Of a DNA stretch of 64,000 bases, positions 14,664 to 32,694 are shown piece by piece. Position 1 is the first letter of the stretch, and the number at the start of each line of letters is the position of its first letter. Under the pieces are notes generated by a model that saw only the letters and a program-made list of their open reading frames with translations, did not search any database and was not told the DNA's origin. This DNA is from Bacillus massiliglaciei (GTDB lineage: Bacteria; Bacillota; Bacilli; Bacillales; DSM-1321), in contig NZ_LT622352.1 of assembly GCF_900098925.1 (NCBI RefSeq), positions 223,762 to 287,761 on the forward strand, in the 5' to 3' direction. The position numbers and the translations under genes are program-made.

Positions 14664-17600
14664 ATTTCAATCCACGCATCCATATAGGATGCGACTAATA
14701 AATCCCCCGCGCTTCTACCTTCGAATTCTTATTTCAATCCACGCATCCATATAGGATGCGACGGATTGATCGATGAAATCATGTTCGATAATCAAGATTT
14801 CAATCCACGCATCCATATAGGATGCGACGGAAAGAGTAATGCTTCAGTAGACATTCAGATTATTTCAATCCACGCATCCATATAGGATGCGACTTTCTTC
14901 AGTTTTGGGAACCTGTTATATGGATCGTATTTCAATCCACGCATCCATATAGGATGCGACACTATACAATCGCTTTTAATAGATCCAACCTTCCGATTTC
15001 AATCCACGCATCCATATAGGATGCGACGAGGGAATGGTCAAAGAATTGTTTGCTGATCAGTACATTTCAATCCACGCATCCATATAGGATGCGACTGGAA
15101 TATTGAGGACAATTCCCTCAGAAAACATAAATTTCAATCCACGCATCCATATAGGATGCGACATCAAGATCTTCTGCATCATCACGACGATTTTTCAAAT
15201 TTCAATCCACGCATCCATATAGGATGCGACACGAACAATTTGTAGCATTCATGAAAAAATATAAATTTCAATCCACGCATCCATATAGGATGCGACGCAA
15301 CTGCACAGCAGACCACTACCTGTACCAGAGATTTCAATCCACGCATCCATATAGGATGCGACTGGCAGGCCAGTCCATTCCTGCTCCTAAAGCGGAAATT
15401 TCAATCCACGCATCCATATAGGATGCGACTCAAAGCTGACATTTATTTACCCCCTCTATAATGATTTCAATCCACGCATCCATATAGGATGCGACGCGTT
15501 GCAACCGCTTCGACTTCCAGCATGATTTTAATTTCAATCCACGCATCCATATAGGATGCGACAGCAGAAAATAGTTCCGTTCAATTCCTATTACCATTTC
15601 AATCCACGCATCCATATAGGATGCGACTAGGCGCGGGATCTTCCACTACTGGGGGCGGGCAGGATTTCAATCCACGCATCCATATAGGATGCGACGGTTT
15701 TACGATGTGCGTCGTCGTATACTATAAGTATTTCAATCCACGCATCCATATAGGATGCGACATACATTAATATCCTGATGCAACTCTTTATTTTCTATTT
15801 CAATCCACGCATCCATATAGGATGCGACATTATACATACAGTTCGTATTTATAGTTTAAAGGAATTTCAATCCACGCATCCATATAGGATGCGACGTTAC
15901 ATTTAAATCTATGCAAGTCACACCAGTTTTAATTTCAATCCACGCATCCATATAGGATGCGACACAACTAAAGCTGGTAAAGTTACAGCTATTTCTATTT
16001 CAATCCACGCATCCATATAGGATGCGACGTAAAGATGTGAGCATATGGGCATTGGCTCAAAATTTCAATCCACGCATCCATATAGGATGCGACGTGGCAG
16101 GCGCTCACGCCAAGAATTCCGTCAGACGATTTCAATCCACGCATCCATATAGGATGCGACTTTTCCAACTCTACCGCGACGGGTCTTGCTGTCCGATTTC
16201 AATCCACGCATCCATATAGGATGCGACGTAAAGGTCGCCCTGCGCAAGATTGCGGCCATTTACATTTCAATCCACGCATCCATATAGGATGCGACATCTG
16301 GGTCAAGCAGGATGTTGGTCAGTGGATACGATTTCAATCCACGCATCCATATAGGATGCGACCTTGAAGTATTTCGCTAATGACGCTATCTTCTAGATTT
16401 CAATCCACGCATCCATATAGGATGCGACGGTTTTACGATGTGCGTCGTCGTATACTATAAGTATTTCAATCCACGCATCCATATAGGATGCGACAAGCGA
16501 AAATAGCAAGAGGAGGCGGAAGATATAGATTTCAATCCACGCATCCATATAGGATGCGACGCGACCGTATAATCAAGTCGCGCTTCATCGCATTATTTCA
16601 ATCCACGCATCCATATAGGATGCGACGACATTGAGTACAGAGAGGACGAAGATAAATGACATTTCAATCCACGCATCCATATAGGATGCGACTCGCGCTC
16701 CTTCACAAGGCGTTCTTCGTAAATTTATTTCAATCCACGCATCCATATAGGATGCGACCGCCGAATCTTCACGCATTCCTGCAAGCTAGGGGCATTTCAA
16801 TCCACGCATCCATATAGGATGCGACGAATATAACTGGCTTCTACATCGTCCACAAATTATTTCAATCCACGCATCCATATAGGATGCGACGTACATAGCG
16901 GACTCACCTCCGCCTAATCAATATTTCAATCCACGCATCCATATAGGATGCGACCATAAAGCGTGGCGTTTCTATTTCCCTTTCGAATTTCAATCCACGC
17001 ATCCATATAGGATGCGACTCATATAGCCTTCCGTCCACTTCAACTCTGTTAAATTTCAATCCACGCATCCATATAGGATGCGACTCGCCCTCTCGAATAC
17101 TTCCGCCTGACGTCCTTTATTTCAATCCACGCATCCATATAGGATGCGACTAATTACACTACAGTATACTTGGAGGAGATTCGATATTTCAATCCACGCA
17201 TCCATATAGGATGCGACCCCCAGCAGCCTGCGTAGTCTCCGTCTAAATTAACATTTCAATCCACGCATCCATATAGGATGCGACAAATTCAGTCAGCACT
17301 GCATTCTCCGTGGAGCTGTAATTTCAATCCACGCATCCATATAGGATGCGACAAAAACCCTCCGGAAATGGAGGGGGTTACTTACTATTTCAATCCACGC
17401 ATCCATATAGGATGCGACGCAGAATAATTGAGCGCTGGCTGCAATAGTTGGGATTTCAATCCACGCATCCATATAGGATGCGACAACGGGCGATTAAAAC
17501 TAGAAGAATTACTTCTACCATTTCAATCCACGCATCCATATAGGATGCGACAGGATGGTATCATGACAACGTGTAAAATCATTACTTATTTCAATCCACG

Positions 17601-20591
17601 CATCCATATAGGATGCGACCGTTCGTGGTTAGATTCGAGATGGATAGGTTTCGTATTTCAATCCACGCATCCATATAGGATGCGACGTAAAGTCAACTTC
17701 CTCCCTCGTGTGCTTAGGAATTTCAATCCACGCATCCATATAGGATGCGACCTCTGCCGATTGACCGACTCACCAGCATGGCTGATTTCAATCCACGCAT
17801 CCATATAGGATGCGACTTCAACGTTGGTCATTTCCTCAAATTGTTTAATAATTTCAATCCACGCATCCATATAGGATGCGACAATGGTAAAGGTTCAGAT
17901 GACGCAAATAAGGACTATTTCAATCCACGCATCCATATAGGATGCGACGACCAACCCGATTAAAAGGCCCACAAAGACGCTCAATTTCAATCCACGCATC
18001 CATATAGGATGCGACTGGTTGGGTGTTTCCACCGTTATTCTGGCTCTTAATTTCAATCCACGCATCCATATAGGATGCGACTTCATAAATTCTACTCCTT
18101 CACAATAGTTATCTTATTTCAATCCACGCATCCATATAGGATGCGACTAAGATCTTTCAGCGTATTCTGCATTCCCTGATACATTTCAATCCACGCATCC
18201 ATATAGGATGCGACCTTCGTGGATGCCGGTAAATATCCAATCTTTGTCAATTTCAATCCACGCATCCATATAGGATGCGACGCTACATAGAGATATAGAA
18301 GACTTATACGATATATTTCAATCCACGCATCCATATAGGATGCGACATCTGCTTTTTCGAGTTTCTTCCTATTATATAGAATTTCAATCCACGCATCCAT
18401 ATAGGATGCGACGTGGTTTCTATCATGGTTGCACCGCCGAAAATAATTTCAATCCACGCATCCATATAGGATGCGACTCAATGCCATATGCGCATCCATT
18501 GGTGTATTTAATTTCAATCCACGCATCCATATAGGATGCGACAAGTTTGGATAAACATATTGGAATATGTTGTATTATTTCAATCCACGCATCCATATAG
18601 GATGCGACGTCCGGCATCTGATCATTCTCCCTGTCTTGGAGATTTCAATCCACGCATCCATATAGGATGCGACTATCTGCCGGCCGTATCATCAAAGGCG
18701 CTGTTAAATTTCAATCCACGCATCCATATAGGATGCGACATATATGAGTATGTATGGATTCAGGAGACAATAATTTCAATCCACGCATCCATATAGGATG
18801 CGACATCTGCTTTTTCGAGTTTCTTCCTATTATATAGAATTTCAATCCACGCATCCATATAGGATGCGACGATAAAGTTATCCGTTTCAGAATCCGGTAA
18901 CTGTTGATTTCAATCCACGCATCCATATAGGATGCGACTCAATGCCATATGCGCATCCATTGGTGTATTTAATTTCAATCCACGCATCCATATAGGATGC
19001 GACTGCTGCGGGCTTGTCTTCACCCGGAATATTTATTATTTCAATCCACGCATCCATATAGGATGCGACATTCCTGAGTGCAAAACCTTGCCATCGTCGA
19101 CGGATTTCAATCCACGCATCCATATAGGATGCGACGATGTTGCTTTCGGTTCATTTACATTAGCCAGTTATTTCAATCCACGCATCCATATAGGATGCGA
19201 CAAATACTTCTGTACGTCCTCCGTAATATCCCAGGCATTTCAATCCACGCATCCATATAGGATGCGACGCATAAACATCCTGTAAGGGGTGTTGCAGACA
19301 TATTTCAATCCACGCATCCATATAGGATGCGACACAGCCCAAAAATGCATAAAATAATGCATAAATATTTCAATCCACGCATCCATATAGGATGCGACAA
19401 TATTTTTTATGATAAAGACCAAGTTCCTATTGATTTCAATCCACGCATCCATATAGGATGCGACTATGGGTCTTGTAATGTCGCCTATCTTTATTATGTA
19501 TTTCAATCCACGCATCCATATAGGATGCGACGCCGTTTTCTTGCCAAAAAGCATACACTTTTCCATTTCAATCCACGCATCCATATAGGATGCGACACAG
19601 ACCGTGTTTCTTGGCAAAGCTGTTGCGTTCTATTTCAATCCACGCATCCATATAGGATGCGACATAGTGATTCTCGGTGATGCATCCATCAAGATAGATT
19701 TCAATCCACGCATCCATATAGGATGCGACAATTGATACCTTCCGCAATCTTACTTTTATAATTCATTTCAATCCACGCATCCATATAGGATGCGACCGGT
19801 TATTTGTTGCATTTACTAACTGTATATAATGATTTCAATCCACGCATCCATATAGGATGCGACGTGCATATACACCATCATCCACAACACCGCCAATATT
19901 TCAATCCACGCATCCATATAGGATGCGACGGTATTTCGGAGTCAAAACACAGATAAATCAACGATTTCAATCCACGCATCCATATAGGATGCGACATAAA
20001 GGGGAAATATTAGATGCGTATGTTTTAAATTTCAATCCACGCATCCATATAGGATGCGACGGAAACCATGCCAGACATCAAGTTACCCGCAGATATTTCA
20101 ATCCACGCATCCATATAGGATGCGACTCCGCCCTGCGCCATGGATTTGATCCCCGGCGTATTATTTCAATCCACGCATCCATATAGGATGCGACTGTCGT
20201 AGACTTGACCATTCTGTCTTACTAATTTATTTCAATCCACGCATCCATATAGGATGCGACCCGGAAGTGGGATTGGTATTGGATGCAAAGAGCCATTTCA
20301 ATCCACGCATCCATATAGGATGCGACCTTCTCCATTAAAACTCTGGATAAAAACAATAAGATTTCAATCCACGCATCCATATAGGATGCGACTAAGTATA
20401 TGTCAATAGTATATACTCAAAAGGAGTATTTCAATCCACGCATCCATATAGGATGCGACCAGTGTTCCTTTTTGTAGGTATTCCGCTAATTTAATTTCAA
20501 TCCACGCATCCATATAGGATGCGACAAAAATGCTTTCCTTCCCAACAGCCGATGGACGAATTTCAATCCACGCATCCATATAGGATGCGAC
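14664..20591 (-). CRISPR. Type I-C CRISPR array 1: 90 repeats, 89 spacers
   Basis: I count 90 copies of a 32-bp repeat separated by 33-36-bp spacers; all the copies I read are identical. In transcription direction (minus strand) the repeat starts GTCGCATCC, has loop TATAT, and ends with the tag TGGATTGAAAT; the 7-bp stem is CGCATCC / GGATGCG. This is the I-C repeat type. cas2 and the leader lie at the high-coordinate end, so the newest spacer is at 20526-20559 and the oldest at 14696-14730. Three spacers occur twice inside the array (15696 and 16429; 18347 and 18805; 18478 and 18939). Three are shared with array 2 (15496, 19334, 20460). The trailing repeat is not degenerate. The open frames that cross the array are artefacts of the repeats. 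Confidence 0.98.
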
Positions 20592-20759: not shown

Positions 20760-20761
20760 CT
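20717..20761 (-). repeat. Leader inverted-repeat element, copy 1
   Basis: The arms GTGCGAAT and ATTCGCAC(C) are 45 bp end to end, 125 bp from the first repeat. Inside, the minus strand keeps TG-AGT---CATA-A with copy 2 (32821-32865). The outer arm overlaps the cas2 stop codon. It may bind an integration or transcription factor, or form a hairpin that ends the cas mRNA; there is no T run. Confidence 0.7.
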
Positions 20762-21050
20762 AAAAAAGCAGCGGGCCCTCTAAATCTATAGATTCTTTTA
20801 CACCAATATGTTCTACCTTCGTTTTATAATTTTTCCCAAGCTGATAAAATCGTAGACTATCAGCTTGTTCATCAATAATATCAGCTAATTCAAATTTCAA
20901 ACTGGCGAATTGAGCTGCATCTACAATACATTCAAAAACAGAATTTTGTACTCTTTGGCCATAGTTTTGACATACCTTTGAAACCTTACGTAGTCTTCTT
21001 TGGCCGGCTCCAGTAACAGTACTGACGTCATAAGTAATTAATACCAGCAC
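20760..21050 (-). CDS. cas2: CRISPR-associated endonuclease Cas2 (type I-C)
   Basis: A 96-residue Cas2 with the ferredoxin-like core. It begins MLVLITYDVST, with the conserved Asp in TYDVS. Together with Cas1 it forms the integrase that inserts new spacers at the leader end. The GTG at 21050 is preferred because it gives the family's usual N-terminus and has AGGTG upstream; an in-frame GTG at 21059, next to the cas1 stop, would add three residues. The sequence also contains RVQNSVFECIVD and ends close to the leader inverted repeat. Confidence 0.93.
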   Translation of the reverse strand: MLVLITYDVSTVTGAGQRRLRKVSKVCQNYGQRVQNSVFECIVDAAQFASLKFELADIIDEQADSLRFYQLGKNYKTKVEHIGVKESIDLEGPLLF

Positions 21051-21059
21051 ATCATACAC

Positions 21060-22091
21060 CTACTTCCATAAAAAAGGTGGATAATCATCTAAGTCATCTC
21101 TTAAATAACGGGCTAATAATAAGGCTTGTACATGAGGAACCAGCCCCCACGTGATTTTCTCTCCTAAATATGGATGTGTCAGTTTCTCCTGTTTCTTGTC
21201 TTGCCAAGCAGACAGAAATTTTTTTCTGGCTTGATCAGTCATTATAACTGATCCATTTTCTTTCTTTAAGAAATCAGATTTATTGAGCACTTTTTTATTT
21301 ATCAATGAGAGCACAAATTTGTCTGCATAGACGCCTCTTAATTCTTCCATAACATCTAACGCTAAAGAGACTCTGCCTGGACGATCGCGATGCAGAAAGC
21401 CAACATACGCATCCAGACCAACACCTTCTAATGCCGCTGCCATATCATTAGCCAGTAAAGTATACGCGAAAGATAGCAGAGCATTTACATTATCTAAAGG
21501 AGGTCTTCTAGAGCGGATTGAAAAGTAAAAATCCTCTTTTTGCTGCAGAATCATCTGATTAAATAATCGATTATAGGCGATAGCAGCCTGTCCCTCCAAA
21601 CCTCTTAATACCTCTAAATCTTCACATTCTCTGATGTCTAAGAGGATTTTAGATAAATGTTTGGATGTTTTTTTAAATTCTTCAATATCTATTCTTAATG
21701 GGTAATCTCTAGTCATCCTTTCAATTATCCACTTACTGTTGAAAATTTTAGCTAAAATAAAGTTTCTTGCCATCTTTGCAGACGCCGTCTCATTATCTGA
21801 AATACGGTATTGCTTTTTTCTTAAAACAACATTTCCTCTGCTTTTTCCGATCACCCGCGCAAGGAACCTGCCATTCTTAGTTAAAAAGACAATGGATAAA
21901 TTTTTTTCAGCACAGTAACCCATCAATGCTGGGCTTGCTCCTGTATATCCAAATGTAATAATCGATTCCAGATTATGAAGCGGAAGTCTTCCGAGCCTCT
22001 CCTTCTCTTTTAGCAAGACAATATTATCGCCATCTAAAGATAAATACACATCGGGCTGTGTAATATATAGCGTATTCAAAAGTCTCTTCAT
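21060..22091 (-). CDS. cas1: CRISPR-associated endonuclease/integrase Cas1 (type I-C)
   Basis: A 343-residue Cas1. The N-terminal beta domain covers about residues 1-90. The helical catalytic domain carries the metal ligands: Glu in LEGQAAIAYNRLF (about 166), His in VGFLHRDRPGR (about 233) and the acidic residues in LALDVMEELRG. It overlaps cas4 by 4 bp (ATGA) and leads straight into cas2. Fresh acquisition is suggested by both arrays having the same spacer near the leader. Nothing looks damaged. Confidence 0.95.
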   Translation of the reverse strand: MKRLLNTLYITQPDVYLSLDGDNIVLLKEKERLGRLPLHNLESIITFGYTGASPALMGYCAEKNLSIVFLTKNGRFLARVIGKSRGNVVLRKKQYRISDNETASAKMARNFILAKIFNSKWIIERMTRDYPLRIDIEEFKKTSKHLSKILLDIRECEDLEVLRGLEGQAAIAYNRLFNQMILQQKEDFYFSIRSRRPPLDNVNALLSFAYTLLANDMAAALEGVGLDAYVGFLHRDRPGRVSLALDVMEELRGVYADKFVLSLINKKVLNKSDFLKKENGSVIMTDQARKKFLSAWQDKKQEKLTHPYLGEKITWGLVPHVQALLLARYLRDDLDDYPPFLWK

Positions 22092-22747
22092 TCATAGACC
22101 TTCCCTTCAATATAACTTTTCACTGACCGTTTATTCATTAAAAGCGGCAGGCAAATATTTTGAAGGGAACAATTTTTACAAAATGACCCCGTTTTAACCT
22201 TAGGTGTATATCTTCTCTTGTAGTATTCCTGCATTTCTTTTACTATGAATCTGACTTTATCTTTGTATTCTCTTGTCAATATGATTTCAACTCTATGTTT
22301 AATTTCATTGTAAAAAAGAAATCCCTTATCTATTTCGCAAAGAAGCATTTCTTCCAAGCAGATTGCCTGTGCAGTTAATTGAAGGATATCTGCGTCATTC
22401 ACCTTTGGTTTTCCACGTTTATATTCAACAGGATAAGCTACAAATTTCCCTTCTGCCCCCTGAATCTCAACGCCTTGCTCATCTTTGATAAATTCGACTA
22501 CGTCACAAACACCTGTGATACCAAGATCATTTGATTTGACAGGCATAGCCCGTACAATGAGTTTTTCTCCTCTTTTTTCCCTGATAAAAGGCTGGTCAGC
22601 ATTACGATGAAGGTACTGGCCTTCTATTGTTTTAACATTTTCTTCCCACTGTTGTTCAATGTGTATAAGCGCCCACTGCCGCTTGCAGAATTGAAAATGC
22701 TGAATTCCAGAAAGCATAAGATATTCAGCCTCTTCATTATATTCCAT
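22088..22747 (-). CDS. cas4: CRISPR-associated exonuclease Cas4 (type I-C)
   Basis: A 219-residue RecB-like nuclease. Cas4 trims prespacers and selects those with a correct PAM end before integration. The four iron-sulphur cysteines can be seen: one in FQFCKRQWALI near the N-terminus and three in SFCKNCSLQNICLP near the C-terminus. Nuclease motifs are GVCDVVEF (Asp) and AYPVEYKRGKPK (Glu-x-Lys). It overlaps cas7 by 11 bp and cas1 by 4 bp. Its presence fits the uniform TTC-type PAM expected for I-C. Confidence 0.95.
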   Translation of the reverse strand: MEYNEEAEYLMLSGIQHFQFCKRQWALIHIEQQWEENVKTIEGQYLHRNADQPFIREKRGEKLIVRAMPVKSNDLGITGVCDVVEFIKDEQGVEIQGAEGKFVAYPVEYKRGKPKVNDADILQLTAQAICLEEMLLCEIDKGFLFYNEIKHRVEIILTREYKDKVRFIVKEMQEYYKRRYTPKVKTGSFCKNCSLQNICLPLLMNKRSVKSYIEGKVYE

Positions 22748-23600
22748 CTAAAATCTCTGCCTTCAGTCCTTCTAGTTCTCCGACCTCAATAGCATAATGA
22801 TCCATATTCTTAGGCTCCTCTACTTTTGCTTTCACCTTCAATAAACGATGAACTTTAGCAGAAGAATATTGTCCTAACTGCGATGTATGCTCCCACCAAC
22901 ACACTTTATGTACTTCCATACTCCCTTCTGGCCGAGCAGCAGAAGCATCATTTTCAAATAATGTCATTAACGCAGACTTCATTTTCTCAGCATCTTCATG
23001 TGTAAAGCCCGTTTTTTCAGCCAATTGTGTATTAATACTCCCATAAAAAACGTAGACGCCAAAATCCACCCGATGCTTCATGCCCATCGTATCAGATCCC
23101 CTCTCCTTACCTGGCTCAGAGTTTACACTTTTGGTAATCTGCATGCTGGTAATATCAATTGGATCAATACTTGTCGCAGTGTGGATTGAAACAGGTCCCC
23201 TTACTCCCACAGATACACCTTTTCCGACTGATCCGCCTTTAAAAGCAAAAACTTGTCCAAAGCTTCGTACATCAATCCACTCCCGGCAAGCAATCTCTGT
23301 AAACTTTTCACTTGCTTTTTCTTTCAGCTTCAAGGATTTCACTAGTTCTTCATTCGCCTCTGCTCTTTCTCTTAAACTGTTGAACTCATCCACCTTTTTA
23401 TCATTTGATTGAACAAAAATTGATTCACCCATATCCTGAAGGCGATTTCTTATTTTTCTTTTAATGGCAACATCTGAAATTTCCCCATACCCATCATAAT
23501 TTTGCCGCGGGCGATTCCCATTCAGCGGATCTCCATTTGCATTCGCTTTTGTTACAGATAAAACAACGGCAAAATCAATCTTATGATCTAAATTTGTCAT
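22737..23600 (-). CDS. cas7: CRISPR Cascade backbone protein Cas7 (Csd2, type I-C)
   Basis: A 287-residue Csd2-type Cas7 that polymerises along the crRNA to form the Cascade backbone. Typical I-C signatures are NANGDPLNGNRPRQNYDGYGEISDVAIKRKIRNRLQ near the N-terminus, the glycine-rich DVRSFGQVFAFKGG at about residue 115, and the GVRGPVSIHTATSIDPI stretch, a likely RNA-contacting loop. It overlaps cas8c by 4 bp and cas4 by 11 bp, so subunits are translationally coupled. Confidence 0.95.
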   Translation of the reverse strand: MTNLDHKIDFAVVLSVTKANANGDPLNGNRPRQNYDGYGEISDVAIKRKIRNRLQDMGESIFVQSNDKKVDEFNSLRERAEANEELVKSLKLKEKASEKFTEIACREWIDVRSFGQVFAFKGGSVGKGVSVGVRGPVSIHTATSIDPIDITSMQITKSVNSEPGKERGSDTMGMKHRVDFGVYVFYGSINTQLAEKTGFTHEDAEKMKSALMTLFENDASAARPEGSMEVHKVCWWEHTSQLGQYSSAKVHRLLKVKAKVEEPKNMDHYAIEVGELEGLKAEILDGI

Positions 23601-25480
23601 TTTTCCATTTCCTCCTTATTGGATGTCTCCGTTTCTTTTTTTTGGTAAAAATCAAATCGTTGGCTATAAAATCCCAATAGATATTTACCTGTAAGCGGCT
23701 TATTATTAAAATCTTCCGCTTTAAACATTGAACCAACTTCATCAATCAACCTGTTATAATACCCAACCTTCTCTCCTAAGCGAGCCTGGTATGGCTGCAA
23801 TGCACTTTGGATCGTTCTCCATGTTCTTTCGGGATGCTGCGAGAAAGTATTCATGTACCTTCTGGCGTTCGTCGCTCTTTTATCACTTGAATCCAGTGCA
23901 TTTCTTTCCAGTACATCCGCAATTGCCAGTAAGCGGCCAAATAAATAGCTTCGATCATCAATTTCCTTATTAAGGCTCACTGTGTATTCCTCCTTTTTAT
24001 TACACAAAGCGCAGGCAATACTTAAAGTTTTTTCCCATTCCCAGTTCTCCATTGCAACAGGATTAGATGCGCGCTGAATGGCATTCCTAACAAGATCATT
24101 TGGTAATGGACGCCGGTCAATCACACAAGGAAGAAGCCGTTCCATCGTTCCTTTTATCACCTTATCACTAGCCTTTGGACCATATGCAGCAAATGCGATA
24201 TCCTTTAAGGAAGGGGCACCATAAAACTCCACAAATTGATTTTCAGTGTTTTTGCGATATCGATGCAGCCAAACACAAGAAGCATGCCAATCTTTAAGCC
24301 TATTTAAATATAGTTCTTTTTGAATGTTTCGATAATAAAGCACAGATAATCTTCCAGTTGTGGCTGAATCAAGCAGCATGATATTGATTTTTGCTGTTGT
24401 ATCTAAACTATTTTTGAACCCATCAATCGCTTTAGCTACCTCATGAGCATAAAGTTCGTGCGTATCAGATTTCATTTCTCCTGCCATGTTGAATAAGTCA
24501 AAACTGTCCTCATTGTAATCTAAAACCTCTTCATTACCCCAAACTAAAAAGACCCTTTGATCAATGATCTTCCCCTGCTTATTTATCAGCCATTTGAGCG
24601 CATTATGTGCTTTTTGGGAAACATCATAGCTGATATTCGCCGCTTCTGTCGGCTTATTAAATCTTCCGCGAAAAGTAAAACCGCTCGAGTCATTAGCAGA
24701 AATTAATTTTGCTTTATCTCCTGCATGCCTAATTTTATTTGCATGTTTATCTGTACTGGGCATCATCTCACCCGTTACATAGCATAGATCTTCATCCTTT
24801 AATAACTCTTTATAATATTGGACAAAGGATTCATACATGTTTGGATCTTTCCATACCTTGGTTAAAACCTTCTCTGACGACCGGACATCAAATCGGATGA
24901 ATGCACTCTCTTGCTCTCCCGAAATGACAGTGAAAATGGGTGGCTTTTCTCCAATCAGTTTTTCATATTCTTTATTCCATGCACCGATTAAATTTCCATC
25001 AGAATCTAAATATAAGATAGGATTGGAGACATTTGTCAAATCTTTAATAAGTCTTCGCTTGCTCAGGTACTGGTAAATGCTTTTCACTTTATCTGTTGCA
25101 TATGGTGATTCTGCCCAATCCCTTAATTGACTGATATAATAGGAAAACGGTTCCTCTTTTTTTATTTTCCCACCGTATGCTGCGAAATCTCCTGCGACAT
25201 AGCTTAATTTATCATGAAGCGGATAAGGTGCTATTTTTGATCCAGCTCTGCTTGCCGATTCTTCTGTGCTGGGAATCAATGTAATCCTATCACTTTTATC
25301 CAAAACCGAGGCAGAGTGAAATTCACCTTCTTCCGTAACCACCACTTCAATATGAGCAGTCTGTGTCGTATGGGAAACGGGAAGCAAGGTATATTCCTGA
25401 CCATTGTATTTCTTCTCAATAACTCCGACCCTGTCTAAATTAGATTGGTAGGTTTCATATAAGTTTAACAGCCAGCTCAT
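23597..25480 (-). CDS. cas8c: CRISPR Cascade large subunit Cas8c (Csd1)
   Basis: A 627-residue Csd1/Cas8c protein, the large Cascade subunit that recognises the PAM. N-terminal MSWLLNLYETYQSNL and the GRFNKPTEAANISYDVSQKAHNALKWLI block are family-typical. A CxxC in ACALCNKKEEY lies in the C-terminal third. In I-C systems an internal start in cas8c also yields a small subunit (Cas11c) from the C-terminal part; a candidate would lie in the last 120 codons, but I could not fix one. Its ATG follows the cas5c stop codon with no gap. Confidence 0.95.
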   Translation of the reverse strand: MSWLLNLYETYQSNLDRVGVIEKKYNGQEYTLLPVSHTTQTAHIEVVVTEEGEFHSASVLDKSDRITLIPSTEESASRAGSKIAPYPLHDKLSYVAGDFAAYGGKIKKEEPFSYYISQLRDWAESPYATDKVKSIYQYLSKRRLIKDLTNVSNPILYLDSDGNLIGAWNKEYEKLIGEKPPIFTVISGEQESAFIRFDVRSSEKVLTKVWKDPNMYESFVQYYKELLKDEDLCYVTGEMMPSTDKHANKIRHAGDKAKLISANDSSGFTFRGRFNKPTEAANISYDVSQKAHNALKWLINKQGKIIDQRVFLVWGNEEVLDYNEDSFDLFNMAGEMKSDTHELYAHEVAKAIDGFKNSLDTTAKINIMLLDSATTGRLSVLYYRNIQKELYLNRLKDWHASCVWLHRYRKNTENQFVEFYGAPSLKDIAFAAYGPKASDKVIKGTMERLLPCVIDRRPLPNDLVRNAIQRASNPVAMENWEWEKTLSIACALCNKKEEYTVSLNKEIDDRSYLFGRLLAIADVLERNALDSSDKRATNARRYMNTFSQHPERTWRTIQSALQPYQARLGEKVGYYNRLIDEVGSMFKAEDFNNKPLTGKYLLGFYSQRFDFYQKKETETSNKEEMEK

Positions 25481-26197
25481 TTATTCTTCACTTCCTCCTA
25501 TCTTTGCAAATAATTCTTCCACCGCCTCAATATTAGCAGAATTAAAAGGTTTCGCCTCCATTTTGGAAACCTTCCGAACAGCTCTGCACTGTTCAGGTCT
25601 AATGAATTGAATTACGCCATCATTCATAACTGGATTCCAGAGACGGATTTCCATCTCATTTCTCCCCGTTTCATCCGGATAGTTAATGCCATGCACCATG
25701 GTTCCAAGGTGAATGTCGCCGTACCCATCATAAAAACCTTCCCCTTCGCCAAATTGGCAAGGCTCCACGTATGCTTGGCACTCTCTGGTTCCAAGAAAAA
25801 TATCCCTTCTTCCTCCTGCCTTAAGGGAACGCTTCAAGATATTGTGATGCTTATTTTCATTACGATCAAAAGCTAAATCAGGACGATATTGATTGAATTC
25901 AAAATGAGCCCTTACCTGATAATGTACATCCTTCAAATATGTATAATAGGCCAGCGTATTGCCTCCCCCATATTCAATCGGACGTATTCCTTTAGACTCC
26001 ATTTTTATCGCTTTCATGATACGGACCGCATCAACAACCATAATCAATGTTGGTTTCCAATATATACTTTCTGTAATTCCTTTTAACGCTTGGTAGGTTG
26101 GTACTTGGTACGTCATTTTCTCCCCGCCGAGCTTCATAAGCGGATCTGTAAAAAGAGCATAGTCGCCAAATACCTCAAATTCGATTGAATTTCTCAT
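25481..26197 (-). CDS. cas5c: CRISPR Cascade endoribonuclease Cas5c (Cas5d)
   Basis: A 238-residue Cas5 of type I-C, which replaces Cas6 and cuts the repeat hairpin to leave an 11-nt 5' tag. Counting from the ATG at 26197, Tyr46, Lys116 and His117 fall exactly where the catalytic residues Y46, K116 and H117 of B. halodurans Cas5d are. That fixes the start; an in-frame GTG three codons upstream is not needed. The ribosome binding site is GAGGTGAT. It is now the first gene of the Cascade operon, because IS1182 separates it from cas3. A 290-bp control region lies upstream. Confidence 0.96.
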
Positions 26198-26255
26198 GGT
26201 TATCACCTCGCAATCTGTAAACTAGTAAGCCCCCTTGTCTTTCCTGATTTCTAAA

Positions 26256-26291
26256 GGACTTGGAATAAGGAAGAATGTTTATTCCAAATCC
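26256..26291 (-). promoter_or_regulatory. Hairpin in the cas5c 5' untranslated region
   Basis: Arms GGACTTGGAATAA and TTATTCCAAATCC pair at 12 of 13 positions around a 10-nt loop. It lies between the predicted cas5c promoter and the gene and is not followed by a T run, so it is not an obvious terminator. It may be an mRNA-stability or protein-binding element. Confidence 0.5.
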
Positions 26292-26370
26292 TTCAGAAAA
26301 ATTAGTTCAATATATTCAGTTGAAAGTTGTCTTTAATATAAATATATTGGAAAATTTAACTAGTACACTT

Positions 26371-26399
26371 AAATTATCACATTGTTCATAATATAACAA
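26371..26399 (-). promoter_or_regulatory. Predicted promoter of the cas5c-cas2 operon
   Basis: On the minus strand TTGTTA (26399-26394) and TAATTT (26376-26371) are separated by 17 bp. Transcription would start near 26364, giving a leader of about 165 nt to cas5c. The -35 abuts the protospacer-like site 26400-26421, so a Cascade R-loop of normal length there would cover it. Confidence 0.5.
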
Positions 26400-26424
26400 C
26401 TATTTTAGTGTTTTATTATATGAA
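26400..26424 (-). promoter_or_regulatory. PAM-flanked target site of the CRISPR-like RNA
   Basis: On the minus strand TTC (26424-26422) is followed by ATATAATAAAACACT and AAAATAG (26421-26400). The pseudo-spacer at 26484 reads ATATAGTACAACACT followed, after removal of the IS, by AAAATAG. Of 22 positions 20 agree. The mismatches are at spacer positions 6 and 9; position 6 is flipped out in type I R-loops and does not count. TTC is the known I-C PAM. The site abuts the predicted cas5c -35. Confidence 0.7.
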
Positions 26425-28283
26425 AGAGAATCGTTTCTGTATGGTATAATTAAATTGTCGTTAGAATTAACGCGGATTGAAATATATAGTACAACACTAA
26501 AGGGGCTGTCTGATAAGTCCCTAAAATAAAGCACGTGGAGAAAAACCAGCCGTTTTTCTCCACGTGCTTTTGTATGTTTTCGATTTTTCTCTGAAAGTAG
26601 CTGGCGGATGCCTGCTACTTTCAGTATATTGTGGGCTAATGCCACAATCCCAAACTCGACATGTACCTTGTCGAGACCCCGCAAAGAAAATCTGCGGAAC
26701 GACCGATTGCCCTTGATGTGACCGAACACACTTTCTACTTCGACTTTCCGCCGAGCGTAGATGGTGGCTTTCTCTTCACATTCAAGGGCTGTTTTTGCCT
26801 TCGCTTTCATTTCCTCGAAGACGGTATTCCAGTGTACTTGACGATTTCCCTTCGCTTTCGTGCATTTCTCTTTCAATGGGCAATCTGTACAATCTTCACA
26901 TTCGTATATTTTGAAGCTTTGCTCATAACCAGACTGATTCTTTTTGTTTTGGTATTTTTTAAGCGTAACTTTCCTTCCATTCGGGCAAATAAAACAATCA
27001 TCTTGCTCACAGTAGGTCCAGTTTTTCGCGTTTTTGATGTCCTTTTTGTATTTGCGTGTCTGTTCTTGTACATAGGATCCATAAGGAATGAGAAAATCAA
27101 ATCGAGGCTCTTTCTCATCACCCACCGCATATACGTAGTTTTCTTCACTGCCATATCCTGCATCCGCGATGACTGTTTGGGGCATCGGTAAAGAAGTAGA
27201 CGCCAGTTTCTCCAAATGCGGGATAAAACAACGCGTGTCTGTAGGCCGTTGATGAATGGTATAAAACAAGATAAATTGGTTCTCCGTCCCCATTTGCACG
27301 TTATACCCCGGCTTAAGCTGACCGTTTTTCATATGATCTTCCTTCATGCGCATAAAGGTTGCGTCTTTGTCCGTTTTGGAATAGCTGTTACGGTCGCCAA
27401 AGATTTCGTTCTGTTCCTTGTATTTCGCTAGTCGCGGTAAGAAATTTTCCCGAATCAGCTTTAAAGGTTTCTTCCATTTACTGCGTTCTTGTCGCTTCTC
27501 CTTACGAATCTTTGCATCTGTTTCCTTTTCAATTTCCTCTGTTAGCGTTCCTGCTTTTTCTTCTATTTCCTTAGCGACTGTCTCTAGATGATGTTCGGTG
27601 ATCTCTGCATTTTGTTCGGTTTCCTTTTCTCCCGTTCCAGCTTCTAATTGGGTTAATTCGTGGATTTGTTGCAGGGTTTCCTGTATTTTCTCTTTTAGCT
27701 TGGCTTCAAATTTCGCCGTTGCTTTTTTCCACACGAAAGAATACTTATTGGCATTGGCTTCGATCTTGGTGCCATCCAAAAAGTAGTTTTCCATCGTGAT
27801 GTATTTTTCTTCAATCAATTTCAGAATCATGGCTTCAAATAACTCATCCATCAAGACTTTCATCCGTTCCCCACGAAACTCGTTGATCGTACGGAAATCT
27901 GGTTGTTGCATCGCAGCTAACCACATGGCTGGGATGTTTTCTTTTATTAGCTTTTCGATTCCTCGGCAGGAATAAACCTTTTGGGAATAACCAAATAGAA
28001 TGATTTTAAGCATCATTTTGGGATGGAAGGGACTTCGGCCACCCCCTTTATAATGAGAAAACAATTGCTCATCCGGTACGGCTTCCACCATTTCGTCTAC
28101 CACACGTGCGACGTGATGTTCCGGTATAAGGGCTTCAACATCCAAGATCATTTGAATTTGGCGATTGTCGTAGGGTTTAAAAGTAGGGGCTAATGATCTT
28201 TTAGGGGCCATTTTCTCCTCTGTCTCTGGAAGAAGTGTCATTTGAGTGGTATAATTTTCGGTAGTAATCATTTGATTGCTCAT
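26400..28283 (-). CDS. IS1182-family transposase with no stop codon inside the element
   Basis: From the ATG at 28283 (site GAAAGGACG) the protein has 627 residues. It has the N-terminal DUF772 domain (HHVARVVDEMVEAV; GRSPFHPKMMLKIILFGYSQKVYSCRGIEKL), a DDE region with DGTKIEANANKYSF and IADAGYGSEENY, a Cys-rich segment (CPNGRKV, CEDCTDCPLKEKC) and a C-terminal VESVFGHIKGNRSFRRFSLRG. The frame continues through the terminal repeat (coding DLSDSP) into host DNA and stops only at 26400-26402, 30 codons later. The intrinsic protein therefore depends on the insertion site for its stop. Length otherwise fits the family. Confidence 0.85.
   Translation of the reverse strand: MSNQMITTENYTTQMTLLPETEEKMAPKRSLAPTFKPYDNRQIQMILDVEALIPEHHVARVVDEMVEAVPDEQLFSHYKGGGRSPFHPKMMLKIILFGYSQKVYSCRGIEKLIKENIPAMWLAAMQQPDFRTINEFRGERMKVLMDELFEAMILKLIEEKYITMENYFLDGTKIEANANKYSFVWKKATAKFEAKLKEKIQETLQQIHELTQLEAGTGEKETEQNAEITEHHLETVAKEIEEKAGTLTEEIEKETDAKIRKEKRQERSKWKKPLKLIRENFLPRLAKYKEQNEIFGDRNSYSKTDKDATFMRMKEDHMKNGQLKPGYNVQMGTENQFILFYTIHQRPTDTRCFIPHLEKLASTSLPMPQTVIADAGYGSEENYVYAVGDEKEPRFDFLIPYGSYVQEQTRKYKKDIKNAKNWTYCEQDDCFICPNGRKVTLKKYQNKKNQSGYEQSFKIYECEDCTDCPLKEKCTKAKGNRQVHWNTVFEEMKAKAKTALECEEKATIYARRKVEVESVFGHIKGNRSFRRFSLRGLDKVHVEFGIVALAHNILKVAGIRQLLSEKNRKHTKARGEKRLVFLHVLYFRDLSDSPFSVVLYISIRVNSNDNLIIPYRNDSLSYNKTLK
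26440..26450 (+). promoter_or_regulatory. Extended -10 promoter of the CRISPR-like RNA
   Basis: TATGG followed by TATAAT is a perfect Bacillus extended -10 (TRTGnTATAAT). The predicted +1, seven bases after the hexamer, is 26457, exactly the first base of the degenerate repeat. No good -35 is seen, which extended -10 promoters do not need. Confidence 0.75.
26457..26498 (+). ncRNA. CreR-like CRISPR-derived regulatory RNA (degenerate repeat plus pseudo-spacer), split by IS1182
   Basis: The degenerate repeat spans 26457-26483 (27 nt against 32 in the arrays). It keeps the initial GTCG, a hairpin re-paired as CGTTA / TAACG with loop GAAT, and the tag CGGATTGAAAT, 10 of 11 identical to the array 1 tag. 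The pseudo-spacer starts at 26484 and keeps 15 nt before IS1182; its former continuation begins at 28420, antisense to the last codons of cas3. It matches a TTC-flanked site next to the cas5c promoter (26400-26421). This is the design of CreR/CreA-type RNAs, which guide Cascade to the cas promoter for autorepression. Today the transcript would run into the IS and probably stop at the hairpin 26528-26570. The role is inferred; the sequence matches are direct. Confidence 0.7.
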
Positions 28284-28419
28284 AAAAATCGTCCTTTCTC
28301 GAATGTTGGTGTGGATAACTTTCATTTTACAGGAAGAGACGATTTTTTTGTGCTTTTTTATAGAAATTAAAAAGGGGCGCCGGCAAGTCAGATAAACCGA
28401 CTTTCTGGACAGCCCCTTT
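26499..28419 (-). mobile_element. IS1182-family insertion between cas3 and cas5c
   Basis: A 1921-bp element with imperfect terminal repeats: AAAGGGGCTGTC at 26499 and its complement GACAGCCCCTTT ending at 28419, 17 of 21 matching when extended. I see no target duplication: joining 26498 to 28420 restores ACACTAAAATAG, the same string as in the target site 26400-26412, so the flanks look like a clean original sequence. It interrupts the pseudo-spacer of the CRISPR-like RNA and replaces the original cas3 stop (TAG) with TAA made from IS bases. Confidence 0.88.
26528..26570. terminator. 18-bp perfect hairpin near the IS1182 end
   Basis: Arms AAAGCACGTGGAGAAAAA (26528-26545) and TTTTTCTCCACGTGCTTT (26553-26570) are perfectly complementary with a 7-nt loop. 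Both strands have T-rich tails. It lies inside the 3' end of the transposase frame and would end transposase mRNA, and also a plus-strand transcript from the promoter at 26440. Confidence 0.7.
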
Positions 28420-30844
28420 AAAATAGGTTGAATCCCAGGTTGCTTTCTCTCTGAATATCCACTCCATATTCCTTGTTATAAGCGCCCTCTTTCAAGACTA
28501 AAATCTTTCCGTCCCATAAGGAAGCCAGTCCGTCATTTTTTATTAATTGATCCCTTTCATAGCTGTATAAATTCACGGTATATTTCTGTGCTTTTTTTAA
28601 CAGGTTTCCTAAATTTTCTATCGATCCAAAACTGTTTAATTCAGCAATAATATCTTCACCTTCTCCAAATGGAACAATGACCGATGTCGTTAAATGATCG
28701 ATCACTTGAAACTGTTCTGCTGCTGTCTTGTAACTGTTTACTAGAAATAAAGGAATCTCCCTCTCATGCTTAAACTTATATGCGTTTCGATATTCATTTT
28801 GCCCTCTAGATACAGTTAATAACTCTGTCATGTTCTTTCTCAACTTCGGTATATAATAATGTAAATCCGATTCTAATTGTTGATAATACTCTTGAAAATA
28901 ACGATTCATTGCTTTTTTTGATAGAACGGATCCTCCCCATTTTTCAGGATTATGTTTTAAATCTATTAAAATCCCTTTTGCTACATGCTTACCATCTCTG
29001 ATCTCCTTTAAATGACTTAAATTTTCTTCTTCGTGATCAATGACGTAAACACTTTGCATAGGTTTCTCTCCATGACGATTGCAGCGGCCGGCTGCCTGGG
29101 CAATGGAATCTAAACCAGCGAGGGAACGGATTACACATTCAAAACTGACATCTACCCCCGCCTCAATCAATTGGGTACTGACACAAATGCATTTATTTCC
29201 GTTTTTAAGTTCATGCCTAACCTTATCCAAAATTTCATTTCTATGAGCAGCACACATAGAAGTGCTTAAGTGATATACTGGAACATCCATCTCTTCATCA
29301 AGCAGTCTTGTATATAACTCTTTTACAACAGATTTTGTATTTAAAATCACTAAGACACTTTGAACTTTCTCTGTCCTTTGCTTAATAAAGGCGGTCAATT
29401 TCTCATTATCAAAGGTTTCACCCGTTGCTTTATCAATCAATTCAACCCTCTTGAAGGCTTGAATTACTTCATCCAAATTTTCAATCATTTCACCGTCAGG
29501 ATCCATTAAAAGTTTTTGTTCAACAAAATCCAAAGCTGGCTGAGTAGCCGTACAAAGAACTGCACTGACTTTGCCATAATTTTTTAAAAAATTCAATGCA
29601 AGATTAAATAAGGACACACATTTAATAGGAACCTTTTGAACCTCATCAAAAACGATAACAGCTTCGCTAAGATTATGCAGCCGCCTTGCATTCCTGCTGC
29701 CTTTTGCATAAAAAGCGTTCAAAAACTGAACCATCGTAGTGAAAATAATGGGAGAATCCCAATTGTCTTTTGCTAATTTTAGTTTCTGCTGTATATCTGT
29801 ATAGCCGTCTTGATTTTCATCATTATCATCCGAATCATCAATGACATTTGAATGATGTTCTAAAATATTTGCATCATCTGCTAGAATCTTGCGAATTTCT
29901 TCTGCATTTTGCTCAATAATGGTGGTAAAAGGAACTACGTAAATAATTCGCTTTTTATGATGGAGAATGGCATGCTTAAGAGCATATCGGAGGCTTGCCA
30001 GCGTTTTACCTCCACCTGTCGGAATCGATAAGGTATAAATACCAGAGGGCTCATCCGCAAACCGTTCACACTGTTCAGACATTTGTCTTCTAAGGAGATT
30101 TATAGGAGTCGCATTATCATTAGAAAAGGAATTAATCTTCTCCATCAGTTTCTCATAATACCTATTAAATAATTGGGGATACGGAGTATTTGGATCTTCA
30201 TACTTATTTTCTTCAAATTGCCTAGTATTGGTACGATCTCCGTCAATCAAAGTGCTAAAAATAAATTTAGTTAAAAACATCAAATTATTTTCAAGCTGAG
30301 GAAGGGGGGCTTTTTTTATAAAAGTTTCGAGTTCTGTAGCTGCCAGATCAACATATTCATAAAAATTCCGTTCACTAATTACTTCATTAAAAAAGTACTG
30401 TTTCGTTTGTTCATACTCCTTAAGTTCTTTATTCTCTACTCTTCTTAAATAATTGGATTCTAAGTTAGGTCCCAAAAAATCCTGCAGGTAGGAATGGTGT
30501 GATATGATCGCATTTCCTACAATTTCAGATAATATGATATGATAACGGCTATTCTTTTTAGGTGAATGAAAAAATTCATATAACAATTTCCCTCCAGCAG
30601 TCGAGTGATCAACACTTCCCCGCTTTGGTGATGATGGAGATGGATTATTCACAGCCTCTAATATGTATTCCTTAAACTCATTTGTATATTTCCCCATATC
30701 ATGAAGCAGTCCGGCTAATCCTGTTATATGCGGGATACCAATCTTTTCTCCAAATGACTCTGCTAACTCTTTAACTTCCAATAAATGCTCCCGAACAGTT
30801 TGAATTTGTTGATCACTTTCACGGATATGTGCAATATACTCCAA
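28418..30844 (-). CDS. cas3: CRISPR-associated helicase/nuclease Cas3 (type I-C, HD fused)
   Basis: An 808-residue Cas3 that unwinds and degrades target DNA after Cascade binding. The N-terminal HD nuclease shows GLAGLLHDMGKY and later AIISHHSYLQDF; the SF2 helicase has IPTGGGKTLASLRYAL (Walker A), IVFDEVQKVP (DExx box as DEVQ), TATQPALDF and QAAGRCNRHGE. I chose the TTG at 30844 (MEYIAHIRESD) since AAAGGATGGG precedes it and the product matches the family start; an upstream TTG at 30877 would add 11 residues. The protein ends NLGFNLF with a TAA partly formed by the IS1182 end; without the IS the stop would be TAG at the same codon, so the protein is unchanged. Confidence 0.95.
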   Translation of the reverse strand: MEYIAHIRESDQQIQTVREHLLEVKELAESFGEKIGIPHITGLAGLLHDMGKYTNEFKEYILEAVNNPSPSSPKRGSVDHSTAGGKLLYEFFHSPKKNSRYHIILSEIVGNAIISHHSYLQDFLGPNLESNYLRRVENKELKEYEQTKQYFFNEVISERNFYEYVDLAATELETFIKKAPLPQLENNLMFLTKFIFSTLIDGDRTNTRQFEENKYEDPNTPYPQLFNRYYEKLMEKINSFSNDNATPINLLRRQMSEQCERFADEPSGIYTLSIPTGGGKTLASLRYALKHAILHHKKRIIYVVPFTTIIEQNAEEIRKILADDANILEHHSNVIDDSDDNDENQDGYTDIQQKLKLAKDNWDSPIIFTTMVQFLNAFYAKGSRNARRLHNLSEAVIVFDEVQKVPIKCVSLFNLALNFLKNYGKVSAVLCTATQPALDFVEQKLLMDPDGEMIENLDEVIQAFKRVELIDKATGETFDNEKLTAFIKQRTEKVQSVLVILNTKSVVKELYTRLLDEEMDVPVYHLSTSMCAAHRNEILDKVRHELKNGNKCICVSTQLIEAGVDVSFECVIRSLAGLDSIAQAAGRCNRHGEKPMQSVYVIDHEEENLSHLKEIRDGKHVAKGILIDLKHNPEKWGGSVLSKKAMNRYFQEYYQQLESDLHYYIPKLRKNMTELLTVSRGQNEYRNAYKFKHEREIPLFLVNSYKTAAEQFQVIDHLTTSVIVPFGEGEDIIAELNSFGSIENLGNLLKKAQKYTVNLYSYERDQLIKNDGLASLWDGKILVLKEGAYNKEYGVDIQRESNLGFNLF

Positions 30845-30888
30845 TTCTCTATCCCATCCTTTCTTATAAATGAACAATGGATCTCAAA

Positions 30889-30939: not shown

Positions 30940-32694
30940 ACAGCGTTCCACATATCCATATAGGAGGTGACGAGCAAAAGGGCATGTTTTTGAGGAGCGA
31001 TTCATATTTCAACCCACACATCCATATAGGATGTAACAAGGATTGATCAGATAAAGATCCAGGCGTGGTTGATTTCAACCCACACATCCATATAGGATGT
31101 GACCCGAAACCTCCCATATCTCCAAGTCGGTCTTTCATATTTCAACCCACACATCCATATAGGATGTGACTGTATCCTGTTTAGCAGCTTCCACCTGGCC
31201 AGCAATTATTTCAACCCACACATCCATATAGGATGTGACGAACAAGGTGATTGTCATAACGATGCTGGGGACCGATTTCAACCCACACATCCATATAGGA
31301 TGTGACTCAGCGAATTAGATTAATAGTTTAGGGGGAAACTATTTCAACCCACACATCCATATAGGATGTGACTTTTATGCTGCCCAACTACCGCCAGTAT
31401 GGCGATATTTCAACCCACACATCCATATAGGATGTGACGCGTTGCAACCGCTTCGACTTCCAGCATGATTTTAATTTCAACCCACACATCCATATAGGAT
31501 GTGACACTGACGCGCGACGCGTCGACAAACCAACGGAGATTTCAACCCACACATCCATATAGGATGTGACAAGAATAGACGAAGGAGTGGATTTTATTGA
31601 GTAGCATTTCAACCCACACATCCATATAGGATGTGACTATTGTAAATTCCGGAGCACGCCGTTCTTTATTATTTCAACCCACACATCCATATAGGATGTG
31701 ACTGTATTCCGCCATTCGTATTCACCACCCGAAAAAATTTCAACCCACACATCCATATAGGATGTGACGCGTGCTCGACTTTAAAGACAGAAATTTGAGT
31801 AATTTCAACCCACACATCCATATAGGATGTGACCTGTTGATCACGCCAGCCTGAATATAGAACTGGAAATTTCAACCCACACATCCATATAGGATGTGAC
31901 ATAATTCAACATTAAAGAAGTCAGCGATTTTTTATTTCAACCCACACATCCATATAGGATGTGACGGCTCCCAAAACGTCATTAGAGCAACAATTCAAGA
32001 TTTCAACCCACACATCCATATAGGATGTGACGTTTGTCCAATTCATTTGCGACCATTTGACGGCCTATTTCAACCCACACATCCATATAGGATGTGACGT
32101 TGTTTCTGCTGCTAATTCAGTGATTTCAAGAGATTTCAACCCACACATCCATATAGGATGTGACTCCTGCCAGGGGATGTTATCCTTCATTCCTTCATTA
32201 TTTCAACCCACACATCCATATAGGATGTGACCTTTGCCGTCCCTGACTACGCCCTTATTCGGTGGATTTCAACCCACACATCCATATAGGATGTGACAAC
32301 AGCCCAAAAATGCATAAAATAATGCATAAATATTTCAACCCACACATCCATATAGGATGTGACAGCTGCAGATCTGGCAGATGATAAAAAGGCAGTAATT
32401 TCAACCCACACATCCATATAGGATGTGACAAAGCATCATCGATTGTTTTTCTTACTTCTTTGAAATTTCAACCCACACATCCATATAGGATGTGACATTG
32501 TCTGCATCCGTTGCTTTTCCCCAGCCTTTATTTCAACCCACACATCCATATAGGATGTGACTCAAGCGATGATGGCAGTGTATTGATGGGCCACGTATTT
32601 CAACCCACACATCCATATAGGATGTGACCAGTGTTCCTTTTTGTAGGTATTCCGCTAATTTAATTTCAACCCACACATCCATATAGGATGTGAC
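30940..32694 (-). CRISPR. Type I-C CRISPR array 2: 27 repeats (one degenerate), 26 spacers
   Basis: The 32-bp repeat in transcription direction starts GTCACATCC and ends TGGGTTGAAAT. It differs from array 1 at positions 4 (G to A), 20 (C to T) and 25 (A to G); 4 and 20 face each other in the stem, so pairing is kept. The leader is at the high-coordinate end, so the newest spacer is 32629-32662. At the old end one repeat has a changed base (31006-31037, GTTAC start) and the last (30940-30971) is badly decayed in the tag half. Three spacers are shared with array 1 (31439, 32298, 32629). Confidence 0.97.

Follow-up and report, generated by a model that had tools for sequence, protein, structure and literature searches.

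The 64,000 nucleotides (nt) of Bacillus massiliglaciei DNA analysed here (contig NZ_LT622352.1, positions 223,762 to 287,761; the whole stretch is called the window) contain a type I-C CRISPR system on the minus strand, in the order array 2, cas3, an insertion sequence (IS) of the IS1182 family, a 293-nt gap, cas5c, cas8c, cas7, cas4, cas1, cas2, and array 1. Our subject is a short unit on the plus strand, between cas3 and cas5c: a candidate creR gene made of a promoter-like sequence, one degenerate repeat, and a guide matching a site with a protospacer-adjacent motif (PAM) upstream of cas5c. Its parts, read from the letters of the window, are as follows.

26442..26450, plus strand: extended -10, TG-G-TATAAT, of the predicted creR promoter; perfect, six nt upstream of the repeat.
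26457..26483, plus strand: single degenerate type I-C repeat GTCGTTAGAATTAACGCGGATTGAAAT, 27 nt, with a hairpin and an 11-nt tag; predicted 5' part of the RNA.
26484..26498, plus strand: native guide positions 1-15, ATATAGTACAACACT; positions 16-18 are AAA at the IS junction.
26422..26424, minus strand: PAM of the target, TTC, at a distance of 33-35 nt upstream of the repeat's first base.
26406..26421, minus strand: target, protospacer positions 1-16, upstream of cas5c; matches at 13 of the 14 scored positions (the scored core being guide positions 1-16 without 6 and 12), or 14/16 raw.
26371..26399, minus strand: predicted weak promoter of the cas5c operon, TTGTTA (26399-26394), 17 nt, TAATTT (26376-26371), below the threshold of the promoter scan.

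The 27-nt degenerate repeat described in the initial annotation of this locus can be read directly, and its tag CGGATTGAAAT is identical to the array 1 tag TGGATTGAAAT at 10 of 11 letters. With the IS in place, 16 of the first 18 guide positions match the minus strand from 26421 downwards (26421-26404) at the TTC site: positions 1-5, 7, 8, and 10-18 match, 6 and 9 are mismatched, and positions 16-18 are the A residues at 26499-26501, partly supplied by the IS end. The gap has 17 TTC sites, and a score of 13/14 or better at any of them was obtained with only 1 in 20,000 guides, both when the guides were shuffled and when they were Markov-generated. The predicted -35 TTGTTA starts 22 nt from the protospacer start, and the automatic pick for this locus is another site at 5. 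Up to E 1, Rfam gave no match to 26457-26498; its four weak hits lie in other parts of 26150-28500 and are all under their gathering scores. BLAST of a plasmid collection returned three records with similarity inside cas5c only.

Several details of the initial annotation can be judged at this point. The perfect extended -10 and the TTC exactly at the spacer boundary (26424-26422) are present as described, and both recur in relatives. The claimed match of 20 in 22 positions holds for 16 of 18, but reaching 22 requires that the IS be taken out; because AAAATAG, on the far side of the IS, forms the 3' end of cas3, and because relatives have no matching excess from position 17 onwards, the extension to 22 is probably fortuitous, and we have abandoned it in favor of a natural match of about 16 nt (39 pairs, below). 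The mismatch at position 6 proves typical of the family, but the typical second mismatch is at 12, and that at 9 is peculiar to this genome. The predicted -35 that the target was said to abut is weak.

Relatives were retrieved by cas5c, taking the best 80 of 193 loci from named genomes plus G042, a genome of the focal genus and the only other cas5c carrier among 43 genomes of the family; with the focal locus the sample comes to 82 cas5c loci. A unit was counted when a repeat tag agreeing at 9 or 10 of 10 letters lay on the strand opposite the cas genes within about 900 nt of cas5c, second tags in loci L030 and L078 being left out of the counts. The first scan found a unit in 33 of the 82 loci, and an RNA model built from 27 of these added L017 and L042, bringing the total to 35/82, of which 33 have a nearby matching target. 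Carriers include Bacillus, Oceanobacillus, Brevibacillus, Paenibacillus, Schinkia, Sporosarcina, Mesobacillus, Heyndrickxia, Lysinibacillus, Viridibacillus, Saccharibacillus, Trichococcus, and one unclassified Bacillota assembly; Schinkia azotoformans (L022), Mesobacillus subterraneus (L038), and Heyndrickxia ginsengihumi (L074) are examples whose unit is intact.

The units share more than the tag. Their repeats are mostly 24-31 nt long, and GTCGC is found before the tag in 27/33 (the focal unit, with GTCGT, is among the other six). The start of the repeat could be located in 32 units; 18 of these have a perfect TATAAT 5-6 nt upstream of it, in 16 cases with TG at the extended position as well. 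After the guide, 24/33 have a gapless stem of at least 6 pairs starting by guide position 26 (a count made without a shuffle control); CCTATC, usually in the form AAAACCTATC..GATAGGTTTT, is present in 19/33; and the folds of units L007 and L030 have z scores of -5.1 and -2.7. Because of this stem, motif, and folding, the unit looks like a one-repeat small RNA with a predicted intrinsic terminator. No second repeat closing the spacer was seen after the guide when the 33 units and the focal locus were read through, a strongly degenerate repeat not being searched for separately.

An RNA-model search of 398 Bacilli genomes, with stricter filters by which weak matches are lost, yielded 13 matches, all among the 55 genomes with cas5c (53 of them above the curated cut-off) and none among the 343 without it; the focal genome, whose unit is cut by the IS, gave no match. 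Four of the 13 are identical to units already known, and nine are new, although one of these (L100) is the unit of L017 too; eight of the nine have a TTC target at 13-14 of 14. Distinct units thus number 42 including the focal one (L017 being grouped with the identical L100), and 38 of the 41 others have a target.

Guide and target are matched far beyond chance, and in a characteristic pattern. Specifically, i) the best TTC site reaches at least 11/14 in 31/33 units and at least 13/14 in 28/33, compared with 35/6,600 and 0/6,600 shuffled-guide trials; ii) when the PAM requirement is removed the best target still has TTC in 31/33 units, two of them (L025, L066) tied with a non-TTC site; iii) L017 has a 14/14 match at TTC, and L042, whose unit lies upstream of cas3, a 14/14 match with a CTC PAM that 0/3,000 shuffles reach at any site; and iv) over 30 distinct pairs there are no mismatches at positions 1-5, 7, 8, and 11, but 26 at position 6, 22 at 12, 7 at 16, and 20 at 17. 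Adding the eight new units and L042 to these 30 gives 39 distinct pairs. Of their 546 core positions 528 match, compared with a mean of 355 and a maximum of 396 when the pairing was permuted 10,000 times. The pairs were picked for good match, which inflates the observed count, but the shuffled-guide controls share that choice and stay far below.

Taken position by position, co-variation at 1, 3, 5, 7-11, and 13-16 is such that 0/10,000 permutations reach the observed value at any of them; at positions 2 and 4, where there is hardly any variation, 12 and 279 of the 10,000 do so, and positions 6, 12, and 17-24 have no matching excess over permutations. The permutation test replaced a swapped-guide control (20/1,054 swaps reach 14/14, and 78/1,054 at least 13) that is weak because the guides are related to each other. 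A free position every six nt is the mark of Cas7-bound guides in Cascade structures, and matching in the blocks 1-5, 7-11, and 13-16 is the pattern of a Cascade R-loop. The proposal of the initial annotation that this is a CreR-like RNA of a type I-C system is thus supported by a family of units with co-varying targets; in the cas3-cas5c gaps of related loci, the comparison it had named in advance as one on which that reading could fail, repeat and target are conserved together.

The best target site is on the cas strand in 26/33 units. Of these 26, 21 have their best-scoring -35-like box beginning at a distance of 14-28 nt from target position 1 (no random control was used; the outliers are the focal locus at 5, L022 at 9, L038 at 13, L066 at 50, and L072 at 359), so that a bound Cascade would cover or touch the -35. 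Many relatives have the target only 79-121 nt from the cas5c match. A second group (L103, L107, L109, L070, and L078) has its target on the opposite strand, immediately upstream of the cas5c ribosome-binding site; here the TTC PAM is the complement of GAA in the Shine-Dalgarno sequence AGAAGG or AGAAAGG. Measured from its PAM side, the target of 18/26 units is 48-60 nt upstream of the repeat tag, roughly near the -35 of the creR promoter, and the RNA might therefore also limit itself; this geometry does not hold in L013, L020, L033, L035, L046, L051, L060, and L061.

We consider it very probable that the degenerate I-C repeat and its guide of ~16 nt, divergent to the cas5c operon, encode a predicted CreR-type RNA which would be loaded into Cascade and direct it to repress, with no cutting of DNA, the genes for Cascade and adaptation. 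Transcription of creR would start at the repeat; Cas5c, which in type I-C processes CRISPR RNA (crRNA) and, with Cas7.7, clamps the 5' handle (excerpts of PMC7684278), would bind the repeat hairpin and tag; a Cascade R-loop of about 16 bp would cover the -35 or, in the second group, the stretch before the ribosome-binding site; Cas3 would be left untriggered because the R-loop is short, as in type I-F1, where guides shortened to 14-26 nt are described in excerpts of PMC7296934 as binding and forming R-loops without triggering Cas2/3; and abundant crRNAs, or an anti-CRISPR protein (Acr) removing Cascade, would release the operon. With less assurance, though we still favor it, we would join these points into a broader proposal: that the CreR of I-C systems in Bacilli forms a separate branch, with a single repeat, a hairpin at its end, a length of ~70-90 nt, and a guide laid out in Cas7 units (5+1+5+1+4 nt); that in the divergent cas3-cas5c promoter region the binding of one Cascade would shut the Cascade and adaptation operon, and often the RNA's own promoter, while cas3 stays on; that a second group aims before the cas5c ribosome-binding site; and that in the focal genome IS1182 may have replaced the terminator without killing the RNA.

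Several findings weigh against repression of this kind, or limit its reach. In type I-E, guides shorter by 6 or 12 nt slow but do not stop Cas3 degradation (again in excerpts of PMC7296934), so that the lack of cutting is an assumption for I-C. The 49 loci passed over in the first scan comprise 31 whose cas3-cas5c gap is shorter than 90 nt and contains no unit, 17 whose gap is longer, among which only L017 and L042 had a unit after all, and L029, with too little sequence; with so many cas5c loci lacking it, the unit is not essential to I-C. No nearby target was found for L005 and L019 among the 35 units or for L108 among the nine new ones, and whole-genome pattern searches gave only two-mismatch matches for L005 (1) and L019 (2), about the number in the reversed-pattern control, and none for L108. 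The target of L070 is weak (11/14), a score that 3/300 shuffles reach for the identical unit L105. Finally, the scan of 26150-26700 found no minus-strand sigma-70 promoter above threshold, and the focal cas5c promoter is weak. By eye, L004 and L002 appear to have kept terminator-like sequence without a unit, and L048 a remnant.

Other explanations of repeat and guide fare much worse. In most loci guide and target are inverted copies flanking the creR promoter, as they would be if they were simply an inverted repeat, each copy being an operator half-site to which some DNA-binding protein attaches in the divergent promoter region; but TTC recurs before the target, one of the copies follows a repeat tag, matching stops at 16 with no excess at 6 and 12, and the target is in direct orientation in L044, L055, L062, L070, L078, L103, L107, and L109. 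The co-variation pattern speaks against an inverted repeat as the general explanation, and the free positions every six nt against a protein operator, where such gaps are not expected; we regard this explanation as extremely improbable. Equally hard to credit is the idea that the unit is what is left of a decayed array, namely its former first or last repeat next to a spacer that was taken from this same locus or resembles it by coincidence: the sequence is repeat-like, it lies near cas genes, and no second repeat was seen after the guide, but selection on guide and target is indicated by the co-variation over 39 pairs, the recurring promoter spacing, and the closely following hairpin. We would give a somewhat larger, though still small, chance to a CreA-like antitoxin guide that represses a toxin or cargo gene rather than the cas genes. 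The unit of L042 (L042:1576-1782), upstream of cas3, has its 14/14 CTC-PAM site just before a reading frame of 103 amino acids (aa), and a 72-aa frame (L055:4695-4913) follows the guided site in a long gap, each a possible cargo gene; set against these are the proximity of target and cas5c in many relatives and the lack of any open reading frame of at least 80 aa between the focal target and cas5c (shorter frames or RNA toxins being possible).

The state of the focal copy is a separate matter, and depends on two further features.

26500..28418, minus strand: IS1182-family element of 1919 bp that interrupts the guide; TA may have been duplicated; ends AAGGGGC..GCCCCTT.
26528..26570, plus strand: hairpin at the IS end, 19 pairs with a T-rich tail, a possible substitute terminator for creR; the fold of 26457-26575 has a z score of -6.58.

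A second IS1182 copy, on contig C12, shows no difference in the two stretches compared, of 1641 and 213 nt (the 65 nt between them lay outside the comparison), and the insertion is therefore likely to be recent. The cut falls after guide position 15 or 16, and the AAA at the junction keeps the 16/18 matches. One explanation, compatible with the proposed family, is that the IS removed the end of the unit and left a dead copy and an unrepressed operon in this genome; granted the family, we put this just short of an even chance, a copy that still represses and a dead one being about evenly matched. Beyond the likely recent date of the insertion, several observations tell against a working copy: among the 30 pairs only this genome has the mismatch at position 9; the usual post-guide hairpin of the relatives is missing, lost by the insertion or earlier; the RNA model scores the unit only at E 0.08 in the window; and the re-paired repeat hairpin, which folds as the initial annotation described, does so weakly (-3.0 kcal/mol, z -0.62, 50/200 shuffles as good). 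Against a dead copy, the 16-nt core is nearly whole since the IS junction supplies A at 16-18; the extended -10, tag, and PAM are intact; and the strong IS-borne hairpin lies 27-69 nt further on, in which case the modelled RNA may be about 115-120 nt long. The same hairpin could stop transcription entering IS1182 from outside. Insertions in the gap may recur, as by eye transposase-like frames lie between target and cas5c in two relatives (L017:4208-4516 and L072:4403-4777).

Regulation of an effector by an RNA of its own locus has parallels. In type II-A a natural single guide, the long form of the trans-activating crRNA (tracrRNA), reportedly turns the effector on its own promoter (Workman et al. 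2021). That system is Cas9 with a tracr-derived guide, and the RNA is unrelated to the I-C unit. Shmakov et al. 2023 (NAR 51:8150) are said to have found computationally, mostly in type I, isolated repeats that are conserved next to cas genes and carry guides against cas promoters, in many cases as mini-arrays of two repeats directed at cas8, whereas the I-C units here have one repeat. The closest relative is CreR (Liu et al. 2023, Cell Host Microbe, as presented in passages of the reviews PMC13131331, PMC12737573, and PMC12948488), which likewise combines an ectopic repeat and a guide of limited match to a cas promoter in effector-guided autorepression, here predicted. Within the focal cas locus there is an ectopic, degenerate repeat of the system's own subtype, with a guide partly matching a PAM-flanked site at a promoter of its own cas genes (a promoter that is itself only predicted), and guide and target are conserved together across relatives. 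Unlike CreR as reviewed in those passages, the present units are I-C, have one repeat, mostly have a hairpin soon after a guide of 16-18 nt, and mostly lie in the cas3-cas5c gap.

Passages of one review report CreR autorepression for I-B, I-E, and V-A (PMC13131331), and passages of another ascribe CreR to type I and V-A in general (PMC12737573; one passage also in PMC12948488); among the literature matches listed, there was no report of an I-C CreR and none that combined CreR, CRISPR, and I-C. CreA of CreTA, according to excerpts of PMC9458426, similarly has one or two degenerate repeats and guides Cascade to repress by partial complementarity; unlike the unit described here, with no frame of the size given above before cas5c, CreA represses a toxin RNA. 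The RNA anti-CRISPRs (Racr) are likewise solitary repeat units, with a type I-C example, but according to passages of PMC10651486 they are encoded by viruses and plasmids and block Cas proteins by mimicking repeats rather than by guiding. Carriage on a mobile element apart from cas genes does not describe the focal unit, which lies between cas3 and cas5c.

If the proposal is true, RNA-guided self-repression reaches type I-C as well, a subtype that is common and has a minimal Cascade, and any Acr that removes I-C Cascade should raise expression of the cas5c operon, making anti-CRISPR escape testable. The natural guides would provide an evolutionary measure of the shortest match for Cascade action on a promoter, about 16 nt in three blocks, that could be useful for CRISPR interference with native I-C systems; and the presence, absence, or IS interruption of the unit among relatives offers natural comparisons.

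The remaining features of the locus are as follows.

25481..26206, minus strand: cas5c (TIGR01876, E 1.5e-85), first gene of the predicted regulated operon.
23597..25480, minus strand: cas8c (csd1; TIGR01863, E 2.1e-135).
22737..23600, minus strand: cas7 (csd2; TIGR02589, E 5.4e-107).
20760..22747, minus strand: cas4-cas1-cas2 (frames 22088-22747, 21060-22091, and 20760-21059), named by gene order and sequence recognition with no family search; downstream in the same predicted operon.
28418..30877, minus strand: cas3 (TIGR01587 and TIGR01596), upstream of the unit, its stop codon abutting the IS.
14664..20591, minus strand: CRISPR array 1, 90 repeats.
31006..32694, minus strand: CRISPR array 2, 26 repeats of variant sequence.

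A second repeat-like tag at 23182 on the plus strand, inside cas7 (GTCGCAGTGTGGATTGAAAC), was rejected as ordinary coding of the conserved Cas7 motif VSIHTATSID; this motif was readable in 34 of the 80 named loci, which differ at its synonymous positions and agree with the tag at 7 to 10 of 11 letters. Derivation of the guide from the system's own arrays was also dropped, the best array spacer matching at only 11/15, which is the reporting limit. The two arrays have unlike repeats (of the GCGTGGATTGAAAT and GTGTGGGTTGAAAT types), yet they have two identical spacers in common, and three spacers of array 1 are present twice.

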